Made by a program: the position numbers and the translations under genes | Source: a virus | DNA: 32,667 nt | Reading direction: 5' to 3' (one strand) | Virus record (IMG/VR): IMGVR_UViG_3300020463_000073 | Location: 1 to 32,667 of that record | The notes under the pieces: model-generated | Seen by the model: the letters and a program-made list of their open reading frames with translations, nothing else | What the model was told of the DNA's origin: nothing | Database searches by the model: none | Shown: positions 15,185 through 32,453 of the stretch, piece by piece | Position numbering within the stretch: the first letter of the stretch is position 1 | Layout of the letters: every line of letters starts with the position of its first letter

Positions 15185-15862
15185 ATGGCAGTAGTTACAC
15201 CAGATTTACCTGACATATTCGAGGAAGCCTACGAACGTGCAGGAATAGAACTAAACACAGGTTACGATCTTCGAACAGCAAGGCGTAGCCTTAATATTAT
15301 GTTACTTGAATGGCAGAACAGAGGTCTTAACCTGTTTACCATAGATGAAGGAACTCTACCTATAGCTGCGGGTACAGCAACGTATACTATGCCTGTGGAT
15401 ACTATAGACGTAATAGAACACAACATACGGACTGGCACTGGTACTAATCAGGTAGATACAGCCTTAGAACGTATATCTGTGTCTAATTATGCCGCTCAGT
15501 CTAACAAGAATACCACAGGCAAGCCTAGTCAGATATATGTACAAAGATTAGCTGCAGAGACAAAAGTAACGTTGTGGCCTGTGCCAGACACTTCTTACAC
15601 GTTATCGTTCTTTAGACTAAAGGGAATAGATGGTCTATCTACGGGTATTGGCACGACAGCAGCAATACCACCACGATTTATACCGTGTCTTGTTGCAGGG
15701 CTTGCTTATCAAATAGCTATGAAGAAGCCTGAGTCATCAGCTAGAGTTGTCCCTCTAAAACAAGAGTATGAGTATCAGTTTGAACTCGCAGCAGGTGAAG
15801 ACGCAGAGACAGCGTCTATAAGGTTCGTACCACACAACACGTTCTTGATAGGTGGTGGATGA
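15185..15862 (+). CDS. Head-tail connector or adaptor protein (P22 gp4-like type)
   Basis: The 225-aa product has a helical N-terminus (IFEEAYERAGIELNTGYDLRTARRSLNIMLLEWQNRGLNLFTI) followed by a beta-rich middle (GTATYTMPVDTIDVIEHNI; KVTLWPVPDTSYTLSFFRLKG) and a C-terminal helix. A helix bundle with an LxxLNxLLxEWxNRGxNLWTI-like motif is typical of proteins joining the portal to the tail in P22-like and marine phages. It probably forms a ring below the portal. The start follows TAGGAAATAATAA. Its stop overlaps the next start (ATGA). Confidence 0.7.
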   Translation: MAVVTPDLPDIFEEAYERAGIELNTGYDLRTARRSLNIMLLEWQNRGLNLFTIDEGTLPIAAGTATYTMPVDTIDVIEHNIRTGTGTNQVDTALERISVSNYAAQSNKNTTGKPSQIYVQRLAAETKVTLWPVPDTSYTLSFFRLKGIDGLSTGIGTTAAIPPRFIPCLVAGLAYQIAMKKPESSARVVPLKQEYEYQFELAAGEDAETASIRFVPHNTFLIGGG

Positions 15863-16719
15863 GGAGCGCTAGTAATAGATACGCTTTTGGTTTCTGTGAC
15901 AGAACTGGCTTCAGATACCCTCTGAATGATCTCGTTGACGAGTATAAGAATGGTGTGAAGACAGGTCTACGTGTGGGTAGAGACGTGGCTGACGATGATC
16001 ACCCACAAAACTTTCTTGGTAGAGTTAGGATATTTGATCCGCAAAACTTAACAAACGCTAGACCAGACACTGCCTTAGAAGCGAGTAGACAGCTATTTGG
16101 GTTTGGTCCTGTATGGAACCCTGCTCAATTTATGACTGCATCTGTTGGTAGGGTTACTGTAAGCTTTGATGAGAGCTTAGTAAACGCCACGGGTGTTTCC
16201 GCTACGGGTATTACTGGTGCAGCATCAGCGCTCACATTTACCGCAAGTGTTACGTCTCCAAATGCCGCTGCAGGTGCAGTTGGAACGGTTACAATAACAG
16301 GTGATATAGTAGAAACTATTCCTGTTACTGGGTCTTCTGCTACTGGTGAAGTTGGTTTTCCTAACCTATTAGTTAACGTAACATCATCAACTATAGTTAC
16401 GGTTGCCTCTGCAGGTTACGGAGGTGGTAATAAATATTATTTTGATAGTACGGAAGCACCTACAGTAAACCTTAGTGAAGGAAGCACTTATCTATTTGAT
16501 CAGTCAGACTCAAGTAATAGTGGTCACCCATTAAGATTTTCAACAACGTCAAATGGAACTCACGCGGGTGGTGTAGAGTACACAACAGGCGTTACAACTG
16601 TAGGAACCCCCGGAAACGCAGGTGCTTATACTCAGATCGTGGTAGCTTCAGGCGCACCAACTCTGTACTATTATTGCACAAACCACAGTGGTATGGGAGG
16701 CCAAGCGAATACACCTTAA
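15859..16719 (+). CDS. Virion protein with C-terminal cupredoxin-like domain
   Basis: This 286-aa protein has three parts. Residues 1-90 form a conserved N-terminal region (ASNRYAFGFCDRTGFRYPLNDL). Residues 95-185 are a VTG/ATG-rich beta segment like the repeats of the 29977-30963 protein. Residues 186-286 form a compact beta domain with SNSGHPLRFS (His223) and YYYCTNHSGMGG (Cys273, His276, Met279). These positions and the Cys-x2-His-x2-Met spacing match the type 1 copper ligands of amicyanin. The same domain occurs near the N-terminus of 19519-20733. The protein likely sits at the tail or a fibre base. Copper binding is inferred, not shown. Confidence 0.75.
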   Translation: MRSASNRYAFGFCDRTGFRYPLNDLVDEYKNGVKTGLRVGRDVADDDHPQNFLGRVRIFDPQNLTNARPDTALEASRQLFGFGPVWNPAQFMTASVGRVTVSFDESLVNATGVSATGITGAASALTFTASVTSPNAAAGAVGTVTITGDIVETIPVTGSSATGEVGFPNLLVNVTSSTIVTVASAGYGGGNKYYFDSTEAPTVNLSEGSTYLFDQSDSSNSGHPLRFSTTSNGTHAGGVEYTTGVTTVGTPGNAGAYTQIVVASGAPTLYYYCTNHSGMGGQANTP

Positions 16720-18795: not shown

Positions 18796-19509
18796 GTGGT
18801 AAAATTTGCAGATCGAGTTAAGGTAAGTACATCGACCACAGGCACAGGAACTGTGACCCTTGGTTCTGCGGAAGCAGGTTTTCAGACTTTTGCTGATGGC
18901 GGTATCTCTAACGGGGATACCGTCAGATACGTTATAGAGGACGGAACCGCCTTTGAGATAGGACAAGGTGTATACACGCATTCAGGTACGACCCTAACAA
19001 GGGTACTATCATCCAGTTCAACAGGATCATTACTAAACCTATCAGGTAGCGCAGTCCTGTTTATCAGCCCTAGTGCTGAAGATCTAACTCTCTCTGGTGC
19101 TGCTCACGACTTTACTAGCTTTACAGCAACTGCAAACCAGACAACATTTACAGTAAACTATGCTGTTGGGAACATCCTCGTGTTTATGAACGGGGCCAAG
19201 CTAAACAGCGCAGATTTTACAGCCACAAACGGAACGTCAGTGGTTCTTGCTTCTGGGGCAACTGTAGGTGACATTGTTGAGGTTGTGGAGTATGGTGGGG
19301 CATCAGCTAACTACTCGACAACATCTTTTACGGCAACAGCAAATCAGACTGCATTCTCTGGAAGTTATAATGTAAACAAGTCTGCAGTGTATCTAAACGG
19401 TGTACTTTTGCTGCCAACAACAGATTATTCGATAAGCGCATCAGCGGTGACCTTGGCGTCAGGGGCTTCGTTGGGCGACATCTTGCAAGTTCAACAATAT
19501 GCTATTTAG
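18796..19509 (+). CDS. Tail-fibre shaft protein with two tandem 60-residue repeats
   Basis: GTG start preceded by TGGAG. The 237-aa product begins [22 protein letters not shown], a typical phage fibre head-binding domain. Two tandem copies of a repeat follow: [10 protein letters not shown]...VFMNGAKL...[19 protein letters not shown] (about 105-165), then [10 protein letters not shown]...VYLNGVLL...[19 protein letters not shown] (about 175-237). The pattern of NQTxF, xVYxNGxxL and GDIxxVxxY recurs in fibre shafts that trimerise. It opens the fibre cluster and probably attaches at the tail base. Confidence 0.75.
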
Positions 19510-19518
19510 GAATTTGAC

Positions 19519-20733
19519 ATGACTATAAACAGAAATTTAGCAAAGTTTGCTCCAAGTATTAACACTTCAGGTAAAGCGGCAGTCGCTACAATTACAGTTA
19601 CGGTTGTTAATTCAGGTGGTAACAAGTATGCTATGGATGGTACAGCTCAACAAACTGTGTCTCTTTCTAAAGGAATTACATACCGTTTTGACAACAGTGA
19701 TAGCTCAAACAGCGGTCATCCACTTGCTTTCTCTACAACTTCTAACGGAAGTCATGGTGGGGGTTCAGCATTTACTACAGGAATTACGACAGTAGGAACT
19801 GCAGGTAGTGCAGGTGCTTATGTAGAGGTTACATTAGAACAAGACGCAGCAGCTACCCTTTATTACTATTGCACAAATCACAGCGGCATGGGCGGCACGG
19901 TAAAAACCGCATATGGCAATTCAAATGTAGTTGAAGACACTACTCCGCAGCTAGGCGGCAATCTTGATGTAAACGGTAACTCAATCGTGTCAGCATCAAA
20001 TGGTAACATATCAATTACGCCAAACGGTTCAGGTAAAGTTATCCTTGACGGTCTTTCTCATCCAACAGCGGATGGCAGTGCAGGGCATGTTTTAAAAACA
20101 GATGGCTCTGGTAACCTAGCGTTTGCATCTGTTGGCTCCCTTTCTGGTTCAGGGATTGCTAATGTAGTAGATGACAGCTCTCCACAGCTAGGCGGCAACT
20201 TAGATATTAACGGTAATGACATTGTCTCAACATCTAATGCTAACATAGACATTATTCCTCACGGCACTGGTGATGTTAACTTAGGTGCTGATACGGTAAT
20301 GGTTGGCGACAATAACGCTAATGCAACGATTACTACACAAGGTACTGGAGATTTAACTCTAAATACTAACTCAGGGACAAACTCTGGAACGGTAACTATT
20401 GCTGATGGCGCAAATGCAAACATATCAATTACACCTAATGGTTCTGGTAAGGTTGTCATCGATGGACTTAGTCATCCCACAGCAGATGGGAGCAATGGAC
20501 AGGCTCTCGTAACAAACGGTAGCGGTGTTCTTAGCTTCTCTACAATATCAGGCGGTGGCGGTGGTGGAGCCACAGGTGGTGGTAGTGACGAGATTTTTTA
20601 TGAGAACGATCAAGCCGTGACAACTAACTATACAGTAACTGCTAGTCACAACGCCGTAACCGCAGGGCCTATAACAGTAAACAACGGCATAACAGTAACG
20701 ATTCCTTCTGGAGTTAGATGGGTTGTAGTATAA
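19519..20733 (+). CDS. Tail fibre with N-terminal cupredoxin-like domain and repeated shaft
   Basis: This 404-aa protein starts behind TAGGAATTTGAC. Residues about 24-130 repeat the domain seen in 15859-16719, with His67 (NSGHPLAFS), Cys118, His121 and Met124 (YYYCTNHSGMGG). The shaft follows, with two copies of DxxPQLGGNLDxNG and two of ISITPNGSGKVxxDGLSHPTADGS. After a Gly-rich linker (GGGGGGATGGG) comes a C-terminal trimerisation-type domain (DEIFYENDQAVTTNYTV ... TVNNGITVTIPSGVRWVVV). It is a classic fibre build apart from the unusual putative copper domain. Its stop overlaps the first propeller gene as TAATG. Confidence 0.8.
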   Translation: MTINRNLAKFAPSINTSGKAAVATITVTVVNSGGNKYAMDGTAQQTVSLSKGITYRFDNSDSSNSGHPLAFSTTSNGSHGGGSAFTTGITTVGTAGSAGAYVEVTLEQDAAATLYYYCTNHSGMGGTVKTAYGNSNVVEDTTPQLGGNLDVNGNSIVSASNGNISITPNGSGKVILDGLSHPTADGSAGHVLKTDGSGNLAFASVGSLSGSGIANVVDDSSPQLGGNLDINGNDIVSTSNANIDIIPHGTGDVNLGADTVMVGDNNANATITTQGTGDLTLNTNSGTNSGTVTIADGANANISITPNGSGKVVIDGLSHPTADGSNGQALVTNGSGVLSFSTISGGGGGGATGGGSDEIFYENDQAVTTNYTVTASHNAVTAGPITVNNGITVTIPSGVRWVVV

Positions 20734-21869
20734 TGAGTGAATTAAAAGTCGATACCATAGTTAATTTAGCGGGTACGGGCAAACCGAACCTACCAGTATC
20801 CCCTACGTTAGGAGGTGCGGCTCTATCTTCAGCAAATACCTACTCTTATACATCATCAGGAACAGAACCTAGTAGCCCTAAAAATGGAGCTATATGGTGG
20901 GATAGCTCTAACAATGAAGTATATCTTTACATAGCGGGTGAGTTTAAAAAAGTTACGCTAAATGCTTCTGCTGCTGCTTTTTCTTGGGGTGGTGATAGAG
21001 GAATCGTTTTTGGTACTAGCTCTTCCTACAATGATATCATGTATTTTAATATCGCTGGTAGTGGTGGGGGTTCAGCAAATTTCGGTGATATGACATTAGA
21101 AAGAAGTACGACAAGTGCAGGTGGTTCTGCTAGTAGAGTTCTTATGGGAGGTGGTTATGGCGGTTCGGCCAATTCTGGTAGAAGTGACATTATAGATTAT
21201 ATTACTCCATCAAGTCCCGGCAATGCGACAGATTTTGGAAATTTAACCGCAGGTAGAAATGCTTTACAGGGAATTAGCAACGGAACGAGATGTCTCTTCG
21301 CAGGTGGATATACCAATGGTCAAGGCGTAGGACACGCTAATTGGACGACTGTTATTGATTATGTGACGATAGCTACCACAGGAAACGCAGCCTCTTTTGG
21401 AAATCTAACTGCATTAGCATATAATCTTGGAGGCACTGGCGCAGGAGATGGAACAAGAGGTCTGTTTATGGGTGGTATCGAAACCACTAACAAACAAATA
21501 GAGTATGTTACTTACGCTACAACAGGTAATTCTGCTGATTTTGGTGACTTGATTTACACTGTTGATAGAAACTCAGCTTGCTCTGATGCAACTAGAAGTG
21601 TTTCTTTTGGTGGTGCGGCTAGTCATAGCCCTTCACACAGAAATATAGAATATGTCACAACTCAAACATTAGGTAATGCCACAGACTTTGGTAATTTGAC
21701 TAACCAACATACTTCGAGCGGTAGTATGTCTAATGGCACAATAGCGATTGCTCAAACAGGTATAGACTTGGAAAAAGTGACAATTCAAACAACAGGGAAT
21801 GCAACAGATTTTGGGGACTTATTAGAATCCAGAACTAGCAATTCAGCCTCATCAGGAAGCCCATCATGA
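20733..21869 (+). CDS. Propeller adhesin 1 of 7 (N-module class A)
   Basis: This 378-aa protein starts at ATG 20733 (MSELKVDTIVNLAGTGKPN), overlapping the fibre stop. An upstream ATG at 20718 lies inside the fibre gene and is not needed. The N-module contains SSPKNGAIWWDSSN and YLYIAGEFKK. Six repeats end SANFGDM, ATDFGNL, AASFGNL, SADFGDL, ATDFGNL and ATDFGDL. A short C-terminal segment (LLESRTSNSASSGSPS) can supply the outer strand that closes the first blade, which begins GDRGIVFG, as in kelch propellers. It is probably a receptor-binding fibre tip. It shares its class A N-module with adhesin 3 and its last-repeat end with adhesin 7. Confidence 0.8.
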   Translation: MSELKVDTIVNLAGTGKPNLPVSPTLGGAALSSANTYSYTSSGTEPSSPKNGAIWWDSSNNEVYLYIAGEFKKVTLNASAAAFSWGGDRGIVFGTSSSYNDIMYFNIAGSGGGSANFGDMTLERSTTSAGGSASRVLMGGGYGGSANSGRSDIIDYITPSSPGNATDFGNLTAGRNALQGISNGTRCLFAGGYTNGQGVGHANWTTVIDYVTIATTGNAASFGNLTALAYNLGGTGAGDGTRGLFMGGIETTNKQIEYVTYATTGNSADFGDLIYTVDRNSACSDATRSVSFGGAASHSPSHRNIEYVTTQTLGNATDFGNLTNQHTSSGSMSNGTIAIAQTGIDLEKVTIQTTGNATDFGDLLESRTSNSASSGSPS

Positions 21870-22981
21870 GTACATTAAAAGTAGATACACTAAAAAACGG
21901 ATCTAGCTCTGCGATTGATTTTCCGCAAAACCTAAAGATAGGTGGAGCAGGGGTCATACAGGGGTACACTGTATCTTCTAGTGAACCCAGTAGCCCCGCG
22001 ACAGGTGATTTCTGGTGGAATAGCAGTGACGAAAAACTCTATCGTTATATCAATGGTGCGTTTAAAGAAATAACTATTGCACCATCAGTTATCAACTATG
22101 GAGATAGAGGATTTTCTATTGGTGATTATAATGAAACCGCTGCAAGTAGAATACATTATTGGGACATAAGCACAGCAAGTAACGCAGCACTTTTTGGAAA
22201 CTTAATTCAAAACTCTCACATAGCAGCAGCTTGTACTAGTGGGGTATATGCTTTTAGATGTGGTGGTTCAAATACAAACTCGTCATCACAAAGAGTAAAT
22301 ACAATAGAGAGATGGACTTGTGCAACCCTAGGAAATTCTGCTGATTTTGGTGACTTAACAGCGACTTGTTACTGGTCTTCAGGACATTCAGACGGCACTA
22401 CTGGTATAGTAAATCATGGGCAAGGTTCTAGCGTTAATACTAATATAGACAGATTTACTATGGCTACAGCAGGTAACGCTACTGATCACGGTGACACAAC
22501 AGTAGGTAGATCTCATATTGCCGTTGCAGCTAATTTAACAAGAATGGTCAATATGGGAGGTCATACTAACACTAAGGTAAACACTATAGACTACATAACG
22601 ATTGCTTCTGCGGGCAACGCTACTGATTTTGGTGACTTAATTGCAGGAAATATGTATCATGCAGGGATGGGTACTGGTTCAGGAAACAGAGCTTTGTCTA
22701 CAGGTGGTAGACCCGCTTCTTCATATTATGATGGAATAGAATATATAGATATTGATACACCGGGCAATGCAACTGATGCAGGTAATTTACTTACTGGTAT
22801 TGGCTACCACGGTGCAACTTCAAACGCAACAAAAGGTCATGCTTACGGTGGCTACAGTAGTAGTGGAGAGTATGGAGAGATACAACAAACTATACTAGCA
22901 ACAGGTGCTAACGCCACTGATCATGGGGATTTATTAGTTGATGATGAATATCAGACATCCACATCAGGAAACGCATCGTGA
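21866..22981 (+). CDS. Propeller adhesin 2 of 7 (N-module class B)
   Basis: This 371-aa protein starts with ATGA overlap, and TCAGGAAG in the end of adhesin 1 serves as ribosome-binding site. The class B N-module (MSTLKVDTLKNGSSSAIDF, NLKIGGAGVIQGYT) is shared with adhesin 7. Six repeats end AALFGNL, SADFGDL, ATDHGDT, ATDFGDL, ATDAGNL and ATDHGDL. The His variants in repeats 3 and 6 and the DTPGNATD repeat 5 match adhesin 6 repeat by repeat, although adhesin 6 has a different N-module. It ends STSGNAS. A role in receptor recognition is inferred. Confidence 0.8.
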   Translation: MSTLKVDTLKNGSSSAIDFPQNLKIGGAGVIQGYTVSSSEPSSPATGDFWWNSSDEKLYRYINGAFKEITIAPSVINYGDRGFSIGDYNETAASRIHYWDISTASNAALFGNLIQNSHIAAACTSGVYAFRCGGSNTNSSSQRVNTIERWTCATLGNSADFGDLTATCYWSSGHSDGTTGIVNHGQGSSVNTNIDRFTMATAGNATDHGDTTVGRSHIAVAANLTRMVNMGGHTNTKVNTIDYITIASAGNATDFGDLIAGNMYHAGMGTGSGNRALSTGGRPASSYYDGIEYIDIDTPGNATDAGNLLTGIGYHGATSNATKGHAYGGYSSSGEYGEIQQTILATGANATDHGDLLVDDEYQTSTSGNAS

Positions 22982-24183
22982 CAAAACAACTAAAGGTAGA
23001 TAGCGTTGTTAACGTAGCAGGTACAGGAAAACCAAACTTTCCTGTCAGCCCCACTTCTGGAGGCGCTGCACTATCTGCCTTAAACACTCACTCATATACG
23101 TCTTCTGCCACAGAACCTAGCAGCCCCAAGAACGGAGCGATTTGGTGGGACAGCGCAAATAACAAGGTGTATGTCTATGCAAACGGTGAGTTTAAAGAAA
23201 TAACCTTAAATACTGCTTACCCTTCTTCATACGTCAACGCTACACACTTTGGTGATCGTGGTCTTAGATTTGGTGGCTATGATACGGGCGTTGATTACTC
23301 AAATGTAATAGATTACTGGGACATAACATCTGCAGGAAATGCTACCGATTTTGGTGATTTAACCGTAAAAAGAAATTATGTTGCCTCTTGTTCTAACGCA
23401 AGTAGAGCTGTTTCGATGGGTGGCGCATCAACTCAAAACGCTGATGGAACTATTTATACTGCTAGTGGAACAACTATAATTGATTATGTAACAATAGCCA
23501 ATACTGGCAATGCCACAGACTTTGGCGATTTGCTTTTCAGAAGAAACAGATCGGCTTGTGAAAGCAATGGAACAAGAGCAGTATTTGGAGGAGGTACGAC
23601 CCGTCAACCTGATGATGGTAGCGGTACTACATCTATTGTTAATAACATAGAGTATATTACAATAGCTAATACAGGGAACGCTACAGATTTTGGCGATTTG
23701 ACAGTAGCTAGAGAGCGTCTTTCAGCAGCATCTAATGGACCTAGAATAGTTTTTGTTGGTGGTAAGGACTCATCAGATTACAACACTATGGATTATGTTA
23801 CTGGTGATACCACAGGAAATGCCACGGACTTTGGTGATATGACAAATCAAGTTAGCAACTTGGGAGCTACAGGGACAGGAACTGGGGATCGAGCCATAAT
23901 ATTTGGTGGTAATGGTAGTAGTTATACAAATGTTATTCAATATTTTGCTGTTTCAAACACAGGAAACGCTGCAGATTTTGGAGACTGTATAGGGAACGAT
24001 TCTTATGCTTCTGCTTGTTGTAATTCAACTAAAGCTCAGTTTGTTGGTGGTTATAACAGTGCCGTAGGTGATATAAATAGAATACAAGAAGTAACAATGG
24101 CTACTCTAGGAAATGCTACAGATTTTGGTGATATAACCAACGCAGTGTATAGTTCGGGAGCAACATCAGGAGCGGCTTCATGA
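22978..24183 (+). CDS. Propeller adhesin 3 of 7 (N-module class A, GTG start)
   Basis: This 401-aa protein starts with GTG in a GTGA overlap, preceded by TCAGGAAACGCATC. The N-module (TKQLKVDSVVNVAGTGKPNF, SSPKNGAIWWDSANNKVYVY) is very close to that of adhesin 1. Six repeats end ATDFGDL three times, then ATDFGDM, AADFGDC and ATDFGDI, the most regular set in the array. Variable loops between GG and the IEY strand are of different lengths, and the third is long (TTRQPDDGSGTTSIVNN). It ends TSGAAS. It is the only array member not starting with ATG, which could lower its relative expression. Confidence 0.8.
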   Translation: MTKQLKVDSVVNVAGTGKPNFPVSPTSGGAALSALNTHSYTSSATEPSSPKNGAIWWDSANNKVYVYANGEFKEITLNTAYPSSYVNATHFGDRGLRFGGYDTGVDYSNVIDYWDITSAGNATDFGDLTVKRNYVASCSNASRAVSMGGASTQNADGTIYTASGTTIIDYVTIANTGNATDFGDLLFRRNRSACESNGTRAVFGGGTTRQPDDGSGTTSIVNNIEYITIANTGNATDFGDLTVARERLSAASNGPRIVFVGGKDSSDYNTMDYVTGDTTGNATDFGDMTNQVSNLGATGTGTGDRAIIFGGNGSSYTNVIQYFAVSNTGNAADFGDCIGNDSYASACCNSTKAQFVGGYNSAVGDINRIQEVTMATLGNATDFGDITNAVYSSGATSGAAS

Positions 24184-25358
24184 GTGAGTTTAATACAGAG
24201 GACATCGTAAACCGAGCAGGTACAGGCAAACCAGACCTGACTAATGGTTTTAACATTAACGGCTCTGACAGTGGTGTAAATCCTCACAAACACACAGAAA
24301 GTGCAAATGAACCTTCTAGTCCATCGAATGGAGATGCTTGGCTAGATACAGACAACGATGTATACAAAGTTTATATTGATGGAGAATGGAAAGACTGGTT
24401 TGGGACTACCGCTAAATTATGGTACGGAGACAGAGCTGTTAGAGTTGGTGTTGGGAGAGCTAACCCATCTCAATTATCAGGAAGCGCAGCTAGTGTAGTC
24501 CCTAATAATCAAATACATAGGTATGATATTACAACATTAGGAAATGCTGTAGATTTTAAAGACAGAACTGTTTCAGCTATTAGGCAAGGCGGTTGTGGCA
24601 ACGGTCAAAATGCTTACATTTTTGGTGGGACTACAACAGGCGAAAATACTAGTGGTGCTATAAACACAATAGAATACTTTTCCATATCAAATTCAACAAA
24701 TGCAGCAGACTTTGGCGATTTATCAGTAGTAGATAAAGACGGAGCCGCTGTTTCTGATGGAACGTATGGCATACATTCTCTTGGTTTTCAAAATAGTGGA
24801 TCTTATAGTAACACTATTGAGTATATTACTATGGATACCCCCGGAAATGCTACAGACTTTGGAGATCGTACTGTATCAGGTATTTTACAATCTTCAGTAA
24901 ATAATGCCACCAGAGGATGTTTTGCGGGAGGTTATGATGGGTCAACATTAGCTACTATAGATTACATTACGATGGGTACATCTGGAAATGCGACAGACTT
25001 CGGTGACCTTACTGTGGCAGGTTATGGTTTTGATGCAGGTGCGGGTTCTGGTAGCGGTGATCGTGGTATATTTGGTTCTATGTATAGGTCTGGTACAATG
25101 GATTATATAACAATCTCTAACACAGGAAACGCCACTGACTTTGGTGATTTGTATGTTGGCCTTAGTTTAGATGTTTATCAAACTCGATATGGTGGAGGTG
25201 TATCAAACGCTACAAGGGCTGTTTGGAGTGCTTCTGCCAATAGTAATGTCATGCAATATGTAACTATGGCAACAACGGGAAATGCAGTAGATTTTGGAGA
25301 TCAAGTCAGTTCTACTTCTAACGATGCTCAGTGTAATGTTTCAGGTAGTGCATCATGA
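24180..25358 (+). CDS. Propeller adhesin 4 of 7 (N-module class C)
   Basis: This 392-aa protein starts with ATGA overlap after TCAGGAGCGGCTTC. The class C N-module (EDIVNRAGTGKPDLTNGFNIN, GSDSG, EPSSPSNGDAWLDTDND) is shared with adhesins 5 and 6. Six repeats end AVDFKDR, AADFGDL, ATDFGDR, ATDFGDL, ATDFGDL and AVDFGDQ. The AVDFKD variant in repeat 1 and the SISNSTNA segment in repeat 2 are shared with adhesin 5, including nearly identical DNA. It ends VSGSAS. It is probably a recent duplicate or conversion partner of adhesin 5. Confidence 0.8.
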   Translation: MSEFNTEDIVNRAGTGKPDLTNGFNINGSDSGVNPHKHTESANEPSSPSNGDAWLDTDNDVYKVYIDGEWKDWFGTTAKLWYGDRAVRVGVGRANPSQLSGSAASVVPNNQIHRYDITTLGNAVDFKDRTVSAIRQGGCGNGQNAYIFGGTTTGENTSGAINTIEYFSISNSTNAADFGDLSVVDKDGAAVSDGTYGIHSLGFQNSGSYSNTIEYITMDTPGNATDFGDRTVSGILQSSVNNATRGCFAGGYDGSTLATIDYITMGTSGNATDFGDLTVAGYGFDAGAGSGSGDRGIFGSMYRSGTMDYITISNTGNATDFGDLYVGLSLDVYQTRYGGGVSNATRAVWSASANSNVMQYVTMATTGNAVDFGDQVSSTSNDAQCNVSGSAS

Positions 25359-26509
25359 GTGAGTTTAAAATTAGAAAACTTACAGACAGAGCGGGTACAG
25401 GCGCACCCAACTTTACTCATGGTTTTAACATTAATGGTTCTGATAGCGGTCTAGTTGGATTTACTCACACAGAAGGATCTAGTGAGCCTAGCAGTTCATC
25501 AAATGGAGATACATGGTGGGACACAGGAAACGACAAATACTATGTGTATATAGATGGTGCATTTAAAGAGTATTCTATTGTTGCTGCAGGGCCACTTTAT
25601 TATGGAGACAGGCTAGTAAGAGTGGGCTTCGCTACAGCAAAAAATGACATACATCGTCTTGATATTACAACATTAGGTAATGCTGTAGATTTTAAAGATC
25701 TAAATAGAACTAGTGCAAACAGAGCTTCAGCTTGTAGCAATGAAGCAAACGCTTACATTTTTAATGGAAACGCAGCGGCTAACGGTACTGGCGCAGAGCA
25801 AAATAGTATTAGTTATTTTTCCATATCAAATTCAACAAATGCATCAGATTTCGGAGATTCTACTGCTTCTACAAGTGCAGGTATGGCATGTTCAGATGCA
25901 ACTACTGGTTGCAATGCCCTAGGTTGGACTGGGAGCGCAGCATTAAATACCATTGATAAAATTACTATGGCTACACCCGGTAATGCTACTGACTTTGGGG
26001 ATTTAACAGTAGCTAGAGCGCCCTTTGGAAATTCTGCAGGGTCTAATGGAAGCAGAGGTATATTTGCTTTAGGTTATGATGGCTCTGGTGGGGTAAACAC
26101 TATTGACTATATAACTATAGCAAACGCAGGTAATGCCACTGATTTTGGTGATCATGTAGCTGCATCATACGGATCAGCCGCAGGAGGCACTGGTACAGGG
26201 GATAGACTAATATTTGCAACATTTTATGGTTACGGCTCTAAGATTAGTTATGTGACTGTATCTACAACAGGTAACGCTGCTGATTTTGGTAACACCACTA
26301 TGACTAGTAGCGCTATTAGTTTTTATTGTGGAGTAGCAGCCAATTCTGAGAGATGTGTTATCCAATCAGGTGGTTATATAGGTGGCGGTGCTTCAAACAT
26401 CATAGAATATGTAACAATGTCTACTTTAGGAAACGCTGCAGATTTTGGAGATCAAGCAACTAATGAAGAGCAATCCCATCAGGTTTGCACATCAGGAGCA
26501 GCATCATGA
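25355..26509 (+). CDS. Propeller adhesin 5 of 7 (N-module class C)
   Basis: This 384-aa protein starts with ATGA overlap, where the adhesin 4 end supplies TCAGGTAG. The N-module (MSEFKIRKLTDRAGTGAPNF, THGFNINGSDSG) is nearly the same as in adhesin 6. Six repeats end AVDFKDL, ASDFGDS, ATDFGDL, ATDFGDH, AADFGNT and AADFGDQ. Repeats 1 and 2 share long identical DNA with adhesin 4 while later repeats diverge. This suggests local conversion or stronger selection on the later blades. It ends TSGAAS. Confidence 0.8.
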   Translation: MSEFKIRKLTDRAGTGAPNFTHGFNINGSDSGLVGFTHTEGSSEPSSSSNGDTWWDTGNDKYYVYIDGAFKEYSIVAAGPLYYGDRLVRVGFATAKNDIHRLDITTLGNAVDFKDLNRTSANRASACSNEANAYIFNGNAAANGTGAEQNSISYFSISNSTNASDFGDSTASTSAGMACSDATTGCNALGWTGSAALNTIDKITMATPGNATDFGDLTVARAPFGNSAGSNGSRGIFALGYDGSGGVNTIDYITIANAGNATDFGDHVAASYGSAAGGTGTGDRLIFATFYGYGSKISYVTVSTTGNAADFGNTTMTSSAISFYCGVAANSERCVIQSGGYIGGGASNIIEYVTMSTLGNAADFGDQATNEEQSHQVCTSGAAS

Positions 26510-27690
26510 GTGAATTTGACTTAGAAGAAATTACAGATCGTGCAGGAACAGGAGCGCCTAACTTTACTCATGGTTTTAACATAAATGGATCTGACAGTGG
26601 CATATCTGTATTTACTCATACTGTAGGTACTACAGAACCATCTAGCCCTTCTAACGGTGATACATGGTGGAACACTGATAACGATTCCTACAATGTGTAT
26701 ATAGACGGTGAGTGGAAGGGATGGTTGGGAGATAGTTATTCTTCAACTTCTAATTACGGAGATAGGGGCTTTGTTTTTGGTGATGACTCATCAACGGACA
26801 TAACCAGAATACAGTATTTCAATCATACATCTTCAGGAAATGCATCAGACTTTGGTGATTTACCCACAGGTGCTTATGGCGCAGCAGGATGCACTAATGC
26901 AATAAATGCATTTAGATTGGGAGGAAATTCAACAACATCTTCTTATCAAAAAACAAACACCATAGAAACTTGGGTTTGCGCTACTACGGGTAATGCAACT
27001 GATTTTGGAGACATAGGGGCGTATACCATGTACAGCCATGCTAATTCAGACGGCACTATTGGCATAGTAGTATGGGGAAGAAGTAAAAGTTCTGCGGGTC
27101 AAGCCAATGGTGATTATACTAATGATGTAGAAAGATTTACTATGGCTTCAGCAGGAAACGCTTCTGATCATGGTGACTTAACTTATAGTCGTGGTTATGG
27201 TGGTTCTGTAGCTAACGCTACTAGAATGGTTAATTTTGGAGGATATAACGCCACCGATCCTTATTACCATAAAGACTGTGATTATTTGACAATGGCAACT
27301 GCGGGCAACTGCGTAGATTTCGGTGACTTAATAAAACATAATCATTACTGTACAGGAGTAGGTAGCGGTTCTGGGGATAGAGGTCTTCAGATGGGTGGCA
27401 TGGCAAGAGTTCCTCCGAGTGGTGGCTTCTATACAGACGAAATACAGTATGTTGATATTAGCACCCCCGGAAATGCTACAGATTCAGGTGATTTGGTCTA
27501 TGCTTCAGGCGAAATGGTAGCAGGTTCAAACAATGCAACAAATGGTTTTAAGTCGGGTGGATACAATAGCGGCACTCCTCAAAATTACATACAAAAAAGT
27601 GTATTGGCTACAGGGGCAAATGCTACTGATCATGGTGATCTACTTACAGCAACATTTGTTTGCACAGGCACATCGGGGAATGCAGCATGA
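26506..27690 (+). CDS. Propeller adhesin 6 of 7 (class C N-module, adhesin-2-type propeller)
   Basis: This 394-aa protein starts at ATG 26506 (MSEFDLEEITDRAGTGAPN), with ATGA overlap and AGGAG nine bases upstream. An in-frame ATG at 26485 lies inside adhesin 5 and is less likely. The N-module is class C, but the six repeats (ASDFGDL, ATDFGDI, ASDHGDL, CVDFGDL, ATDSGDL, ATDHGDL) follow adhesin 2 blade for blade. Shared features include NTIE-W-CAT, DGT-GIV, RFTMA, TRMVN and LATGANATDHGDLL. It is therefore a natural chimera of an adhesin-5-type head and an adhesin-2-type tip. It ends TSGNAA. Confidence 0.8.
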   Translation: MSEFDLEEITDRAGTGAPNFTHGFNINGSDSGISVFTHTVGTTEPSSPSNGDTWWNTDNDSYNVYIDGEWKGWLGDSYSSTSNYGDRGFVFGDDSSTDITRIQYFNHTSSGNASDFGDLPTGAYGAAGCTNAINAFRLGGNSTTSSYQKTNTIETWVCATTGNATDFGDIGAYTMYSHANSDGTIGIVVWGRSKSSAGQANGDYTNDVERFTMASAGNASDHGDLTYSRGYGGSVANATRMVNFGGYNATDPYYHKDCDYLTMATAGNCVDFGDLIKHNHYCTGVGSGSGDRGLQMGGMARVPPSGGFYTDEIQYVDISTPGNATDSGDLVYASGEMVAGSNNATNGFKSGGYNSGTPQNYIQKSVLATGANATDHGDLLTATFVCTGTSGNAA

Positions 27691-28805
27691 GTACACTAAA
27701 AGTAGATACAATTAGAAACTACGACAGTGCCGTTGATTTCTCTCAGGGCCTTAATATTGGCGGGACGAGCATAATCCAGAACTATACCGAAAGTGCTGAT
27801 ATGCCATCCTCTCCTAGCAATGGAGACTACTGGTGGGATACTGGTAACAATAAGCTATACAAGTATATGGATAGTGGATTTAAAGAGCTTGGTATTGCTC
27901 CCCCACCTAGCAATCCTTGGAGTGGTGATAGAGGTATGATTGCAGGAGGTGAAACATCAACTGCTTCGATTTCAAATGTTGTTCAGTATTTCGACATTAC
28001 TACAGCAGGTAACACTCAAGACTTTGGTGACCTAACAACAACAACAGAAAATGCTGCAGGTGCTAGTAGTTCTGCAAGAGGTTTGAGTTTAGGAGGTTCA
28101 GGAACATCAGGTCTTGCGGAGATACAGTATGTAACCATTTCAACTCTTGGTAACGCTCAAGACTTTGGTGATTTAGCTACTGGTGTTTATTATCATGCAG
28201 CCTGTTCTGATGGCACAAAAGCGTTTGTAAATGGTGGGTATAATGGTAGCTTTCTCAATCAAATACAGTATGTAACTATTGCAACTACTGGCAACGCTGC
28301 TGATTGGGGGGATCTGGTAGGTACATCTTGGCTTGGTATGGCGGCAACCGCAGATACTACAAGAGTCGTTCACTACGTTGGTCATCGTAGTGGATACACT
28401 AACGCCATAGATTATTATTCTACTGCTAGTGCAGGAAATGCTTCAGACTTTGGAAATGCAACTGCAGCTACAGGACAAGCAGGAGCATGTTCAGATGCTA
28501 CAAGAGCTGTAATTGGAGGCGGTACTCCTGATGGTGGTACTACCATCTATAATAAAATAGACTACCTTACTATACAAACCACTGGTAACGCTGCTGATTT
28601 TGGCGATCTTACTGCGGCACGTTTTAGACCTGACGCATGTGCTAATTATACTAGAGGCGTTTTTTCTGGTGGGAACGCCGCATCAAGCACTAAGCAAAAT
28701 GTTATGGATTTTGTAACTATTCAAACCACTGGTAATGCAACAGACTTTGGTGATCTCTTAGAGGCTACAGTCAATCATTGTTCATTTTCAGGGTCGCCAT
28801 CTTAA
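27687..28805 (+). CDS. Propeller adhesin 7 of 7 (N-module class B)
   Basis: This 372-aa protein starts at ATG 27687 (MSTLKVDTIRNYDSAVDF) with ATGA overlap. The upstream in-frame ATG at 27660 lies inside adhesin 6. The class B N-module matches adhesin 2. Six repeats end TQDFGDL, AQDFGDL, AADWGDL, ASDFGNA, AADFGDL and ATDFGDL. The IQTTGNATDFGDLLE end and the final SGSPS match adhesin 1 rather than adhesin 2. It closes the array. The next gene has its own strong ribosome-binding site rather than a coupled junction. Confidence 0.8.
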   Translation: MSTLKVDTIRNYDSAVDFSQGLNIGGTSIIQNYTESADMPSSPSNGDYWWDTGNNKLYKYMDSGFKELGIAPPPSNPWSGDRGMIAGGETSTASISNVVQYFDITTAGNTQDFGDLTTTTENAAGASSSARGLSLGGSGTSGLAEIQYVTISTLGNAQDFGDLATGVYYHAACSDGTKAFVNGGYNGSFLNQIQYVTIATTGNAADWGDLVGTSWLGMAATADTTRVVHYVGHRSGYTNAIDYYSTASAGNASDFGNATAATGQAGACSDATRAVIGGGTPDGGTTIYNKIDYLTIQTTGNAADFGDLTAARFRPDACANYTRGVFSGGNAASSTKQNVMDFVTIQTTGNATDFGDLLEATVNHCSFSGSPS

Positions 28806-28816
28806 AGGAGAAAAAA

Positions 28817-29662
28817 ATGGGAAAGACTAAGACTAAAAAGAAAACTAACGTAGTAACGAAGCCAATCACGTTTTCGTTACCTATAGAGTCGTCTGAGAAT
28901 ATCAATCAGGTAGCTGCTGCAAGGGTGGCAGATAAGTTACCAGAGATAGATCAGGCAACCAGAGCGTTTGATCGTAATAACTCAGCGACAACTTTGTCTA
29001 TGATGACACTCACTATGCTCAATGGTCACTCGCCTATGCGTATGCTTCGTCAGATTACAGCAGAGGTAGAGAAACGTAAGATGGCACTTGCAGAAGCGCA
29101 GGTCAGCCATGCTGAGAAGCGTGTAGAAATATTAGACCTTGAAGAAGAGGATGACATTGTCTCTGAGGCAAAGCTCAAAGCAGCTCGTCATGGCCTGACA
29201 ATGATGGAGCATAAGATAAACGGATCTATCAAAGACATTGCGGTTCTTATTGATAGCTATGAGAATATAAAAGAAAAGTGGGACATAGATGTCTGGGATG
29301 AAGAGCTTTTCGAAAGAGAAGAGAAACGTCACCATGTCCGTAGGGGCTTTGAGCTTATGTACCGAAACCTGATGGATGGTGGCAGAGTTTCTACTTCAAC
29401 TATAGAATACATGCAGCAATATGGCGTTCACCCACAGGTGGCTATGACTGAAGTGTCTGGATACATAAACCACACTGCACAGCAGATAAAAAATCATGTA
29501 CTGCCGCATTCCAATGATCTTGAAGAATTTATGGATCAAATGGCTGATAAGTATTATAAGAATGCAGACAAGACTGCTGAAAGAATATTTGGTAAATCAG
29601 ATTTTCTGAATCCCGAATATATGTTAAGACTAGAAAAAACGGAGAAAAAAGATGATACTTGA
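28817..29662 (+). CDS. 281-aa helical phage protein, unknown function
   Basis: The start is ATG 28817, behind a perfect AAAGGAGAAAAAA site. An upstream in-frame ATG at 28778 lies inside adhesin 7. The N-terminus is Lys-rich (GKTKTKKKTNVVTK). The rest is nearly all helix with strong coiled-coil potential (TAEVEKRKMALAEAQVSHAEKR, LDLEEEDDIVSEAKLKAARHG) and contains DVWDEELFEREEKRHHVRRGFELMYRN. It ends in a charged region. There is no beta-fibre character, unlike its neighbours. It may be a tail-assembly chaperone or internal virion protein. The family is not recognised with confidence. Confidence 0.7.
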   Translation: MGKTKTKKKTNVVTKPITFSLPIESSENINQVAAARVADKLPEIDQATRAFDRNNSATTLSMMTLTMLNGHSPMRMLRQITAEVEKRKMALAEAQVSHAEKRVEILDLEEEDDIVSEAKLKAARHGLTMMEHKINGSIKDIAVLIDSYENIKEKWDIDVWDEELFEREEKRHHVRRGFELMYRNLMDGGRVSTSTIEYMQQYGVHPQVAMTEVSGYINHTAQQIKNHVLPHSNDLEEFMDQMADKYYKNADKTAERIFGKSDFLNPEYMLRLEKTEKKDDT

Positions 29663-29976: not shown

Positions 29977-30963
29977 ATGTTTGGCTTTTATCCAGTAGCA
30001 TCGGCTCCGATAGCTGATGATCAGGCGGGAGTAGTCGTTCCGATTACTGTCTCCGTTACTGGGTTAAGCGTAACAGCTTCTACAGCCGCTACTACGATAG
30101 CAGGCGCTGTAGATACTCCACAGACAGGTCTTGGCTCTACAGGTGGGGTCGGAACTCTTACTGTCACAGGCATTGGTAACACTAGTGCCACAGGCGTTGC
30201 AGTTACTGGCTCTGTAGGCACAGCGGTAGCGAGTATACCAAATGACATATCAGTGTCAGGACTTGAGGCCACCACAGGTATAGGCTCAGTCACAACAGCT
30301 AACCAGACGATTGTTTCCGTAACAGGCGTATCATCTAACACAACTTCTGGTTCCGTTACTGTTGAAGGCTTGGCAATCGCCCCTGCCACAGGGCTTGAGG
30401 CTACTGGTGCAATAGGTTCTCCAACCATACTTGCGGATACCGAAGTCGATGTTACAGGTGTAAGCGCTACGGCCTCTGTAGGGTCGGTCAATGCAGATCT
30501 ATCTATAAGCGTCCTTGTGACAGGTATAGCGGCTAACATCTCTACAGAAGACGTAACTATTACGGGCGCTGCAAGCATACCTGCAACAGGACTGCAGGGT
30601 AGTGGAAATGTGGGAACTATCGCTGTAGCAGCAAACGCAAGCACAGGAGTAACAGGTCTAAGCGCAACAGCATCTACTTCTTCAGTCAATCCAGTTTCAA
30701 GTGTCGATGTTACAAGCGTAGGCGCTACTGGTGGTGTAGGAAGTGCATCAATAGTAGGTATTGCCTCTGTACAAGTAACTGGTGTCTTTGGGCGGGGTGT
30801 TGTGGGAACAACTAGACACTTTACACCTGTAGACTTACTGGATGTCCCATTAGATCCATATGCGCCCTTAGTTGTAGACGTTCCGATTGATGATGTGTAT
30901 GGTGAGGTAGATTTAAGTGGTGAGCCAGATCGTGTATGGACAGATCTAGACGTAGCAGCATAG
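29977..30963 (+). CDS. Fibre-like protein built of about eleven VTG-type short repeats
   Basis: The N-terminus MFGFYPVASAPIAD is followed by about eleven imperfect repeats of roughly 20-25 residues with consensus VxVTGLxATxxVGSV (residues about 25-270). A non-repeated C-terminus follows (VDLLDVPLDPYAPLVVDVPIDD, YGEVDLSGEPDRVWTDLDV). Such short repeats suit a beta-solenoid or stacked-strand shaft. The same VTG...ATG style occurs in the middle of the 15859-16719 protein. The codons for the repeats create a long open frame on the opposite strand, which is a shadow. It is probably a virion fibre or tail-surface protein. Confidence 0.72.
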   Translation: MFGFYPVASAPIADDQAGVVVPITVSVTGLSVTASTAATTIAGAVDTPQTGLGSTGGVGTLTVTGIGNTSATGVAVTGSVGTAVASIPNDISVSGLEATTGIGSVTTANQTIVSVTGVSSNTTSGSVTVEGLAIAPATGLEATGAIGSPTILADTEVDVTGVSATASVGSVNADLSISVLVTGIAANISTEDVTITGAASIPATGLQGSGNVGTIAVAANASTGVTGLSATASTSSVNPVSSVDVTSVGATGGVGSASIVGIASVQVTGVFGRGVVGTTRHFTPVDLLDVPLDPYAPLVVDVPIDDVYGEVDLSGEPDRVWTDLDVAA

Positions 30964-30972
30964 GAGCATAAC

Positions 30973-31716
30973 ATGCCCAGTACATTTACAACGAACACAG
31001 GTATAGAAAAGCCCGCTCAAGGTGAGCAATCTGGTTCTTGGGGTATTACCGTAAACACAAATAGCGATATACTTGATCGCGCACTTAATGGCGTTGTCTC
31101 GTTAAGTCTTGTAGGAACCTCTAGCAACCTCACGACAAGCAACGGTGCTACATCAGATGGGCAAAACAAAGTTCTTCTTTGTAGCGGCACTCTAGCAGCA
31201 ACTCATACTATCACCATACTCCCTGCAGACGCACAGAAGGTTTACTATGTAAAGAACGATGCAACCAAAACGGTTTCATTTACTCAAGGTTCTGGTGCTA
31301 CTACAGCAAACATAGCCGTAGGTTCTTTCGCAATCATATATGCTGACGGTAACAACAATGTTGTGAACTTATCGCTTAGTTCTGAGTTAGGTCAGCTTAA
31401 ACAGAATGGCGTTCCTATAACTTCATCTGCTGCAGATCTTAACATGCTTGATGGCGCTGATGCCACTACTCTAGAGCTTGCAGATTTAGTGCTTTTAGAC
31501 GGTGCAGTAAAGAATACTGTTGTTGCTGAAAAAGCTGTTGTCTATGGAAGCAGCGGTGAGATTATAACAAATAAAATGCAAGTGGGCGGCAACTGGAGTA
31601 TAGAGCAGTCTGGGTCAGATTTGAAGTTTTTCTATAATGGAAGCCCCAGATTTAAGATAACGTCTGGCGGTGCTACAGTAGCTATAAACGACGTAACGGC
31701 ATTTGGAAGTGTATAA
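30973..31716 (+). CDS. Tail-fibre protein
   Basis: The 247-aa product begins PSTFTTNTGIEKPAQGEQSGSWG, with ITVNTNSDILDRALNG, a widespread N-terminal domain of marine phage tail fibres. It also contains ITSSAADLNMLDGADATTLELADL, the typical fibre ITxSAAELNxLDG repeat motif, and ends with a beta-rich segment (WSIEQSGSDLKFFYNGSPRFKITSGG). The start at 30973 follows AGGAGCATAAC. The stop overlaps the next start (TAATG), so the two fibre proteins are coupled and may form one fibre. Confidence 0.78.
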   Translation: MPSTFTTNTGIEKPAQGEQSGSWGITVNTNSDILDRALNGVVSLSLVGTSSNLTTSNGATSDGQNKVLLCSGTLAATHTITILPADAQKVYYVKNDATKTVSFTQGSGATTANIAVGSFAIIYADGNNNVVNLSLSSELGQLKQNGVPITSSAADLNMLDGADATTLELADLVLLDGAVKNTVVAEKAVVYGSSGEIITNKMQVGGNWSIEQSGSDLKFFYNGSPRFKITSGGATVAINDVTAFGSV

Positions 31717-32453
31717 TGACTCTACCATCATCTGGAAATCCATTAAGCTTATCGCAGATAGAAGGTGAATTTGGGGGAGGCGCTCCTACTACCCTAAGAG
31801 AGTACTATGACGCTGCCACTGGTGTTCCTTCTCTAGGTAGCCCTCTCTCTATAAGTGATTTCTACGGCAAGTCTAATGTTACATATTTTAATTATACCAT
31901 CTTAGGCGGGGGCGGTGCAGGAGGGTGGGGTCGAGAAGATGGCTATGGATATGGTAGAGCAGCAAGTGGAGGCACATCCTCTATCTCTGGCTCTGGGTTT
32001 GTAACCGTATCTTGGACTGGTGCGACTGGCGGCTTAAATGGGAATGTATCTCCATATGATACAGCTTCTCGGACGGGCAAATCATCTACCAGAGGTGTAG
32101 GTGGAACGGCCTTTCCTAATGGTAGAGGCGCTAATTCAGGCGGATCATGGACAACTTATGGCGATTCACCCAATAATGGCGCAGGTGGCGGCGGTGCAGG
32201 TGGGGATACACCCGGTTTTCTTGACAGCAGTGGTGGAGCGGGTTCAGGCGGGAATGCATCATCTACAAGCTCTGGATTTAGGTATATTACACCCGGAACA
32301 GTCATTACAATAGTTGTTGGAGCAGGTGGTGTAGGTACTCCGTTTAACTATAGTGGTGGTAAAGGCGGGGATGGACTTGTAATAATAACTCCTGCAGGAG
32401 GTACTGCAACCACTTATGACGTAGCAGGTACTTATACACAAACAATAACGTAG
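31716..32453 (+). CDS. Gly-rich adhesin or fibre-tip protein
   Basis: The 245-aa product has an N-terminal domain with LPSSGNPLSLSQIEGEFGG, TTLREYYDAATG and GSPLSISDFYGKS, a motif set common in marine phage structural proteins. The rest is very rich in Gly and Ser (YTILGGGGAGGWG, NNGAGGGGAGGDTPG, SSGGAGSGGNAS) and ends in hydrophobic strands (VITIVVGAGGVG, DGLVIITPAGG). Glycine-rich segments framed by hydrophobic turns resemble the polyglycine-II sandwich of T4-type gp38 adhesins. It is likely a receptor-contacting tip on the preceding fibre; this is inference. Confidence 0.72.
   Translation: MTLPSSGNPLSLSQIEGEFGGGAPTTLREYYDAATGVPSLGSPLSISDFYGKSNVTYFNYTILGGGGAGGWGREDGYGYGRAASGGTSSISGSGFVTVSWTGATGGLNGNVSPYDTASRTGKSSTRGVGGTAFPNGRGANSGGSWTTYGDSPNNGAGGGGAGGDTPGFLDSSGGAGSGGNASSTSSGFRYITPGTVITIVVGAGGVGTPFNYSGGKGGDGLVIITPAGGTATTYDVAGTYTQTIT

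Follow-up and report, generated by a model that had tools for sequence, protein, structure and literature searches.

The host range of a phage is usually ascribed to one or two of its fibre genes. In the staphylococcal phage phi11, a phage of another type, the receptor-binding part of a tail protein is a propeller with a different blade family, encoded by a single gene. In marine phages, metaviromic islands encode modular tail fibres whose attachment part is conserved and whose recognition part is hypervariable among near-identical phages (PMC3909814), and the text of that study makes no mention of tandem, paralog or multiple copies. Here we describe a locus at positions 20733-28805 of the IMG/VR virus record IMGVR_UViG_3300020463_000073, a linear sequence of 32,667 bases from an uncultured phage (the window, by which we mean this whole stretch), where seven tandem genes each encode a predicted six-bladed kelch propeller joined to an N-terminal anchor domain.

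The array shares a conserved base and a variable tip with the metaviromic-island fibres (PMC3909814), but has many paralogues per operon, three classes of anchor and one six-blade scaffold. The propellers resemble those of the eukaryotic Kelch proteins Keap1, KLHL12 and KLHL20 and the designed SAKe6 proteins in having six four-stranded blades, a GG doublet, a ring closed by an innermost strand from the C-terminus and variable BC/DA loops on the ligand face; however, they are only 10-18% identical to them, carry an anchor in place of BTB/BACK, lie in tandem exchangeable genes and have a ligand face that is putative. Among the best viral structural matches in Foldseek were the Synechococcus phage S-SKS1 protein M4QT40 and the uncultured phage protein A0A6J7WZC1 (34% identical), which are alike in structure but are unnamed or fragmentary proteins without a described function.

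A comparable arrangement in cultured phages is that of HTVC023P (gp59-gp62) and 023Pt_psg01, which have a related portal and, in the corresponding region, three to four tandem paralogues with a similar MSxxKVxxI start. These differ in their C-terminal domain, which is Gly_rich_2 (PF21722, E-value (E) 3.6e-18 for gp62), and are annotated only as hypothetical or structural; the HTVC023P-type Gly-rich set is thus a parallel array with another type of head. The 3-4 tandem Gly-rich paralogues at L324 21242-26938 (HTVC023P gp59-gp62) and L326 25472-29679 end in SGIVIIRYKFQ or close variants. The pelagiphage paper (PMC9599517) makes no mention of tail fiber, tandem or duplication, and leaves the HTVC023P-type tandem paralogues undiscussed. 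In the limited literature searched, we found no description of kelch or propeller tail proteins or of tandem receptor-binding arrays: modular variable tail fibres are known, whereas these papers do not describe exchangeable kelch heads of six blades that are set in tandem on anchors of partly conserved order.

Fold and variable face of the propellers

Seven consecutive open reading frames (ORFs) on the + strand, all intact, fill 20733-28805, in agreement with the seven tandem paralogous genes proposed in a first-pass annotation of this DNA. We located six repeat ends in each of the seven products, 42 altogether, and a blade profile built from the window repeats likewise counted six in each, which bears out the six repeats per product (42 blades) of that annotation. 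Structure prediction, which it had suggested as a check, was run with AlphaFold2 on two of the seven products, those of gene 1 (20733..21869) and gene 3 (22978..24183, with a GTG start), and gave confident closed six-bladed kelch propellers for both. The gene 3 model, made with 110 homologues, has a mean predicted local distance difference test score (pLDDT) of 89.5, with most of the propeller >95, and the gene 1 model has a pLDDT of 87.5, this gene being the most degenerate one (in its first and last repeats). Over the whole repeat region, both models align with 7onc (VIA-align Z 40.3 and a root-mean-square deviation (rmsd) of 1.8 Å over 279 residues for gene 3; Z 35.0 and 2.3 Å over 269 residues for gene 1). 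The best structural matches are designed six-bladed SAKe6 proteins, with the crystal structures of Keap1, KLHL12 and KLHL17 close behind. This confirms the products, by high-confidence prediction, as six-bladed kelch propellers, two of them from folding and all seven from the repeat count.

No product scored above the gathering threshold of Pfam Kelch_1 (a single one matched, with E 0.037 and 14.0 bits compared to a cut-off of 20.1), and hence we claim membership of the kelch fold and not of the Pfam family. A search of PDB sequences with the profile gave only insignificant kelch matches (E 1.8), so that the claim of the fold rests on structure prediction. The PHROG matches of the propellers (phrog_26444, 19111 and 29440) are all of unknown function.

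In KLHL20, blade I is closed by a C-terminal innermost strand (PMC6720452). The rings in our models are closed in a comparable way by a C-terminal strand (residues 394-398 in gene 3 and 371-375 in gene 1), which is aligned with the C-terminus of Keap1, the structural alignment running to residue 401, equivalent to Keap1 612. The earlier suggestion that C-terminal residues complete the first repeat therefore stands in part: the C-terminal 16-18 residues supply a strand, but it is predicted to be strand A, the innermost one, as in KLHL20 and Keap1 (PMC6720452), and not an outer strand. The GG doublet ends strand B (alignment columns 25-26 are G/G, with entropies of 1.3 and 0.3), and some window blades lack it, such as blade 6 of gene 1.

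The number of blades is constant far beyond chance. Exactly six were found in 318 of the 338 complete homologous ORFs of 300-450 amino acids, which form a redundant set; 240 distinct six-blade sequences of any length occur within the redundant homologues. Among ORFs of 560-720 amino acids, 8 of 14 have 12 blades. Frames of this length, often with exactly 12 blades, i.e., two fused six-bladed propellers, are found at L043 5071-8783 and in L078, L070 and L073.

We aligned 654 blades over columns 1-52 with a profile made from the window, by which very divergent blades are under-sampled. Blade ends aside, insertions and deletions are confined to columns 27-34, corresponding to the BC loop, and the highest entropies, of up to 3.8-3.9 bits, are those of the BC loop and of the DA linker, the AB and CD loops being more conserved. 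The substrate surface of KLHL20 is formed by the BC and DA loops (PMC6720452). From the variability of these loops in the phage proteins and the use of the same loops by KLHL20, we infer a fixed ring with a single variable face for binding, in which the BC/DA face is the probable ligand-binding face and the opposite face is conserved. The first-pass description of a constant six-blade scaffold with divergent loops is thus supported by both the blade counts and the single variable face. With hardly any insertions or deletions outside one loop, the family also amounts to a set of natural variants of a kelch scaffold, a type of scaffold that protein design already employs.

Anchor domains and the exchange of propellers between them

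Every gene opens with a separate N-terminal anchor domain of about 78-91 residues, which had been overlooked in the first-pass annotation and has the consensus ...YTxSxxEPSSPSNGDxWWDTxNxKxYVYIDGEFKE. The anchors fall into three classes in a tree, several forks of which have weak support owing to the small size of the domain. Class A comprises gene 1 (anchor 20733-20990, propeller 20991-21869) and gene 3 (anchor 22978-23250, propeller 23251-24183). Class B contains gene 2 (21866..22981; anchor 21866-22099, propeller 22100-22981 with six repeats) and gene 7 (27687..28805; anchor 27687-27923, propeller 27924-28805), while class C is made up of gene 4 (24180..25358; anchor 24180-24425, propeller 24426-25358), gene 5 (25355..26509; anchor 25355-25603, propeller 25604-26509) and gene 6 (26506..27690; anchor 26506-26757, propeller 26758-27690). 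The starts of genes 6 and 7 given here, 26506 and 27687, and the GTG start of gene 3 are corrections to the earlier reading. The order of the classes is A-B-A-C-C-C-B in the window and A-A-C-B-C-B in the related loci L169 and L174, and the anchors of the last slot, including that of gene 7, form a group of their own (win_7/L169_6/L174_6/L175_5, support 93/72). Other heads are found on the same anchor in relatives: L250 has a laminin-G/ConA-like end there (a weak match, E 0.026), and L178 has an SBBP-type propeller, whose match (E 0.002) falls slightly short of the Pfam cut-off.

Compared to the closest relatives, the proteins flanking the array are mostly 88-98% identical, whereas the best anchors are mostly 60-89% and the best propellers usually 35-55% identical. 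Pairs of genes from different genomes with an anchor identity of at least 85% numbered 25, and among these the propellers are <55% identical in 19 and at least 80% identical in 6, with none in between. For gene 7, the propeller is 66-68% identical to that of L169:3386-4531, with anchors of 52-56%. This combination of a conserved N-terminal part and a variable C-terminal part is that of a modular tail-fibre protein, in which the anchor would provide the attachment to the tail.

A domain swap is seen within the window. The anchor of gene 6 resembles that of gene 5 (65%; 75% at the DNA level), while its propeller resembles that of gene 2 (51%, compared to 34% for gene 5). The anchor tree rejects a grouping of genes 6 and 2 (log-likelihood (lnL) difference 60), and the propeller tree joins them as sisters with a support of 100/99 and rejects a grouping of genes 6 and 5 (p-AU 0.0097), the p values of these tree tests being descriptive since the tested groups were suggested by the same data. 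Several window propellers, those of genes 2-6, cluster together in the propeller tree.

Exchange is also seen between genomes. The propeller of gene 3 is 72% identical to that of L039:5218-6795, and equally to a propeller of L232, where the N-terminus is unrelated and the alignment starts at the domain border. Cultured pelagiphages have proteins with a tail-fibre annotation that match part of the unrelated N-terminus of L232, and the gene downstream of the array is only 63% identical between L232 and the window. Similarly, L178:6908 and L249:13311 are 86% identical in the propeller and 39% in the anchor, and for L169:4528 and L174:7774 the synonymous divergence (dS) of the anchors (0.41) exceeds that of the propellers (0.06). 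Taken from sequence comparison, these cases show that recombination at the border of anchor and propeller, or near it, has exchanged propellers between anchors and between phage lineages. A diversity-generating retroelement was considered and rejected, as no match to the reverse transcriptase domain RVT_1 was found in the window and eight related records (nine records, which are fragments, so that the absence is not absolute).

Array size and the role of the seven products

Relatives were gathered by the gene downstream of the array, and propeller genes were counted directly upstream of it. The counts refer to complete, de-duplicated arrays, include some loci with a low-identity downstream gene and leave genes beyond an interrupting non-propeller gene uncounted. 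Arrays of 0 (10 loci), 1 (24), 2 (6), 3 (29), 5 (2), 6 (5) and 7 genes (1, the window) were found. In addition, two assemblies of another phage, of 69 and 121 kb (L039 and L062, records G010 and G015), have 13 propeller matches each, which extend over about 18 kb, several of them on a different tail-fibre-like N-terminus. Arrays are thus common among IMG/VR relatives and variable in number, with seven being high but below the maximum, and the array, which had been called unusual, is so only in relative terms. The related loci do not carry an invariable set of seven in fixed order, an outcome that the first-pass annotation had considered, but show turnover, with 1-7 genes at this locus and 13 elsewhere.

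Outside IMG/VR, megablast of the window and tblastn of gene 3 gave no match to named phages, the latter possibly in part due to the low-complexity filter, and the blade consensus matched only one named phage, S-SKS1. In bacterial genomes, matches were limited to eight scattered contigs, mostly fragments of metagenome-assembled genomes, with no clear prophage or host.

The six junctions within the array are 4-base ATGA/GTGA overlaps, and a Shine-Dalgarno-like site for the next gene lies in the last codons of the preceding one. For gene 2, this site is found at the end of gene 1 (SSGSPS, TCATCAGGAAGC...; 21847..21868, + strand), and sites of the same kind are present at about 22961, 24163, 25339, 26489 and 27670. 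A core of the Shine-Dalgarno type immediately precedes the start of the following gene in 157 of 160 distinct junctions in relatives, compared to a background of 15% at random positions inside genes. The C-terminal SGxAS motif (TCAGGA...) coincides with the ribosome-binding site of the next gene, and other phages have HGGL (CACGGAGGT...) there; since the site occupies the final codons of the gene upstream, it explains these C-terminal motifs at least in part. The ratio of nonsynonymous to synonymous divergence (dN/dS) of the propellers was 0.14-0.57 in ten pairs, which indicates that the comparable propeller pairs are under purifying selection, i.e., that the proteins are kept working.

We consider it likely that the seven genes encode receptor-binding tail-fibre adhesins on conserved bases, several of which are displayed together. 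The adhesin function claimed in the first-pass annotation is supported indirectly, by the location in the tail module, by a close propeller that is fused to a pelagiphage tail-fibre domain and by the other heads on the same anchor. According to this reading, the N-terminal anchor would fix each product to the phage tail, each six-bladed propeller would be closed by its own C-terminal strand, and its hypervariable BC/DA face would probably bind the ligand, with the opposite face conserved. The genes would be translated in series, each start being served by the Shine-Dalgarno site in the preceding gene and translation probably being coupled. The three anchor classes keep a partly conserved order across related phages while propellers move between anchors and lineages, so that the phage probably bears several different host-binding heads, renewable without a change of the tail. 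Several observations weigh against this reading. In both models, the anchor is predicted with partial confidence only (about 50-67 pLDDT in the first 40 residues), no attachment partner for it was found, and a sequence-level match to a characterised receptor-binding protein was likewise not found. Few pairs underlie the dN/dS values, and a window gene is part of only two of them (genes 3 and 7), and kelch propellers can also be enzymes. Finally, the portal-related cultured phages HTVC023P and 023Pt_psg01 carry Gly-rich tandem proteins at the corresponding place and not propellers.

The first-pass annotation offered two alternatives, a displayed repertoire and a reservoir for recombination. In a reservoir, one or a few copies would be displayed and the others would be stored cassettes that recombine into an expression slot, in line with the movement of heads between anchors within and between genomes and with the clustering among the propellers of genes 2-6, as local copying would give. 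However, the anchors keep their classes and, in part, their order, the lack of a reverse transcriptase in the nine records gives no sign of retroelement-driven diversification, and known silent-cassette systems have incomplete copies. Because each copy has a full anchor, a start codon and a ribosome-binding site, and because the comparable propellers are under purifying selection (two pairs with a window gene), the displayed repertoire fits better, and we regard a reservoir as unlikely, although recombination of heads clearly occurs. The three anchor classes with their partly conserved order in L169 and L174, together with the last-slot group, could also reflect a mixed or stacked fibre, in which the products are joined in one heteromer, each anchor docks to a particular neighbour and gene order is assembly order; but the number of genes differs even among close relatives, the order in the window deviates and the order of anchors is swapped between L170 and L172, which leaves such a fibre quite improbable.

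A role of the propellers as enzymes, or as virion or secreted proteins of another non-adhesive kind, for instance as glycan-active kelch proteins, is very improbable. Kelch propellers include oxidases, and Foldseek lists phage proteins called galactose oxidase, but the BC/DA face varies in sequence and loop length across the paralogues, and the anchor also bears other binding-type domains. Arrays in relatives often lie at contig ends, as might be expected if an assembly artefact, or a recent duplication of one gene, were involved; however, gene 1 shares only 32-48% identity with its paralogues, and the same arrays are found again in metagenome assemblies that bear different numbers (L174/L237, L195/L197 and, for the arrays with 13 matches, G010 and G015), by which we reject this explanation as having next to no probability.

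The reading as displayed adhesins may be extended, more tentatively and with some doubt on our part, to a slot-coded repertoire: the class of the anchor would specify a docking site, one virion would show as many as a dozen different kelch heads at once, in a defined combination, and lineages would continually re-deal the heads among the slots. If true, recognition would be combinatorial, with a single scaffold underlying the whole system. The uncultured phages of this common group have 1-13 parallel adhesin candidates on one scaffold, with visible exchange of modules, so that the number of receptors open to one virion and the rate of head turnover in nature become questions that can be approached by counting in genomes and tested by proteomics.

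Genome setting and neighbouring genes

The gene order along the window is terminase-portal-capsid-tail, followed by the propeller array and by a conserved gene ending at 29662, with neighbours that match tail PHROGs; the array is thus encoded inside the tail gene module, as expected of a modular tail-fibre receptor-binding protein. The portal protein is ~39-45% identical to those of the nearest named phages, which are the pelagiphages HTVC023P and HTVC027P, phage 023Pt_psg01, the Roseobacter phages CRP-901/902 and some cyanophages, and on this ground the phage is probably of marine origin. Upstream of the array are two genes for tail-fibre-like proteins on the + strand, at 18796..19509 (PHROG 2710 tail fiber, E 7.7e-9) and at 19519..20733 (PHROGs 677 and 693, both tail, E 1e-20 and 1e-16), the latter with a cupredoxin-like domain. 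The conserved downstream gene (28778..29662, +), whose function is unassigned, served as the locus marker in relatives (80 IMG/VR loci, 59-96% identity); it is listed from the TTG at 28778, and its real start is probably further in.

Neighbouring tail-fibre genes are also variable between close relatives (29-90% identity for 19519-20733 and 40-77% for 31716-32453), as expected of a recognition module. The product of 31716-32453 is Gly-rich (with a Gly_rich_2 match below cut-off) and is perhaps a further recognition protein. In the products of 15859-16719 and 19519-20733, both tail-fibre-like by their matches to PHROG 677/693, a cupredoxin-like domain is present whose ligand pattern, GHP...C-x2-H-x2-MG, marks a candidate type-1 copper site; Pfam Copper-bind matches the 19519-20733 product with E 0.0075, below the cut-off. 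Finally, an open frame of 325 amino acids at 30021-30998 (-) lies antisense to the repetitive gene 29977-30963 and is probably a by-product of composition.

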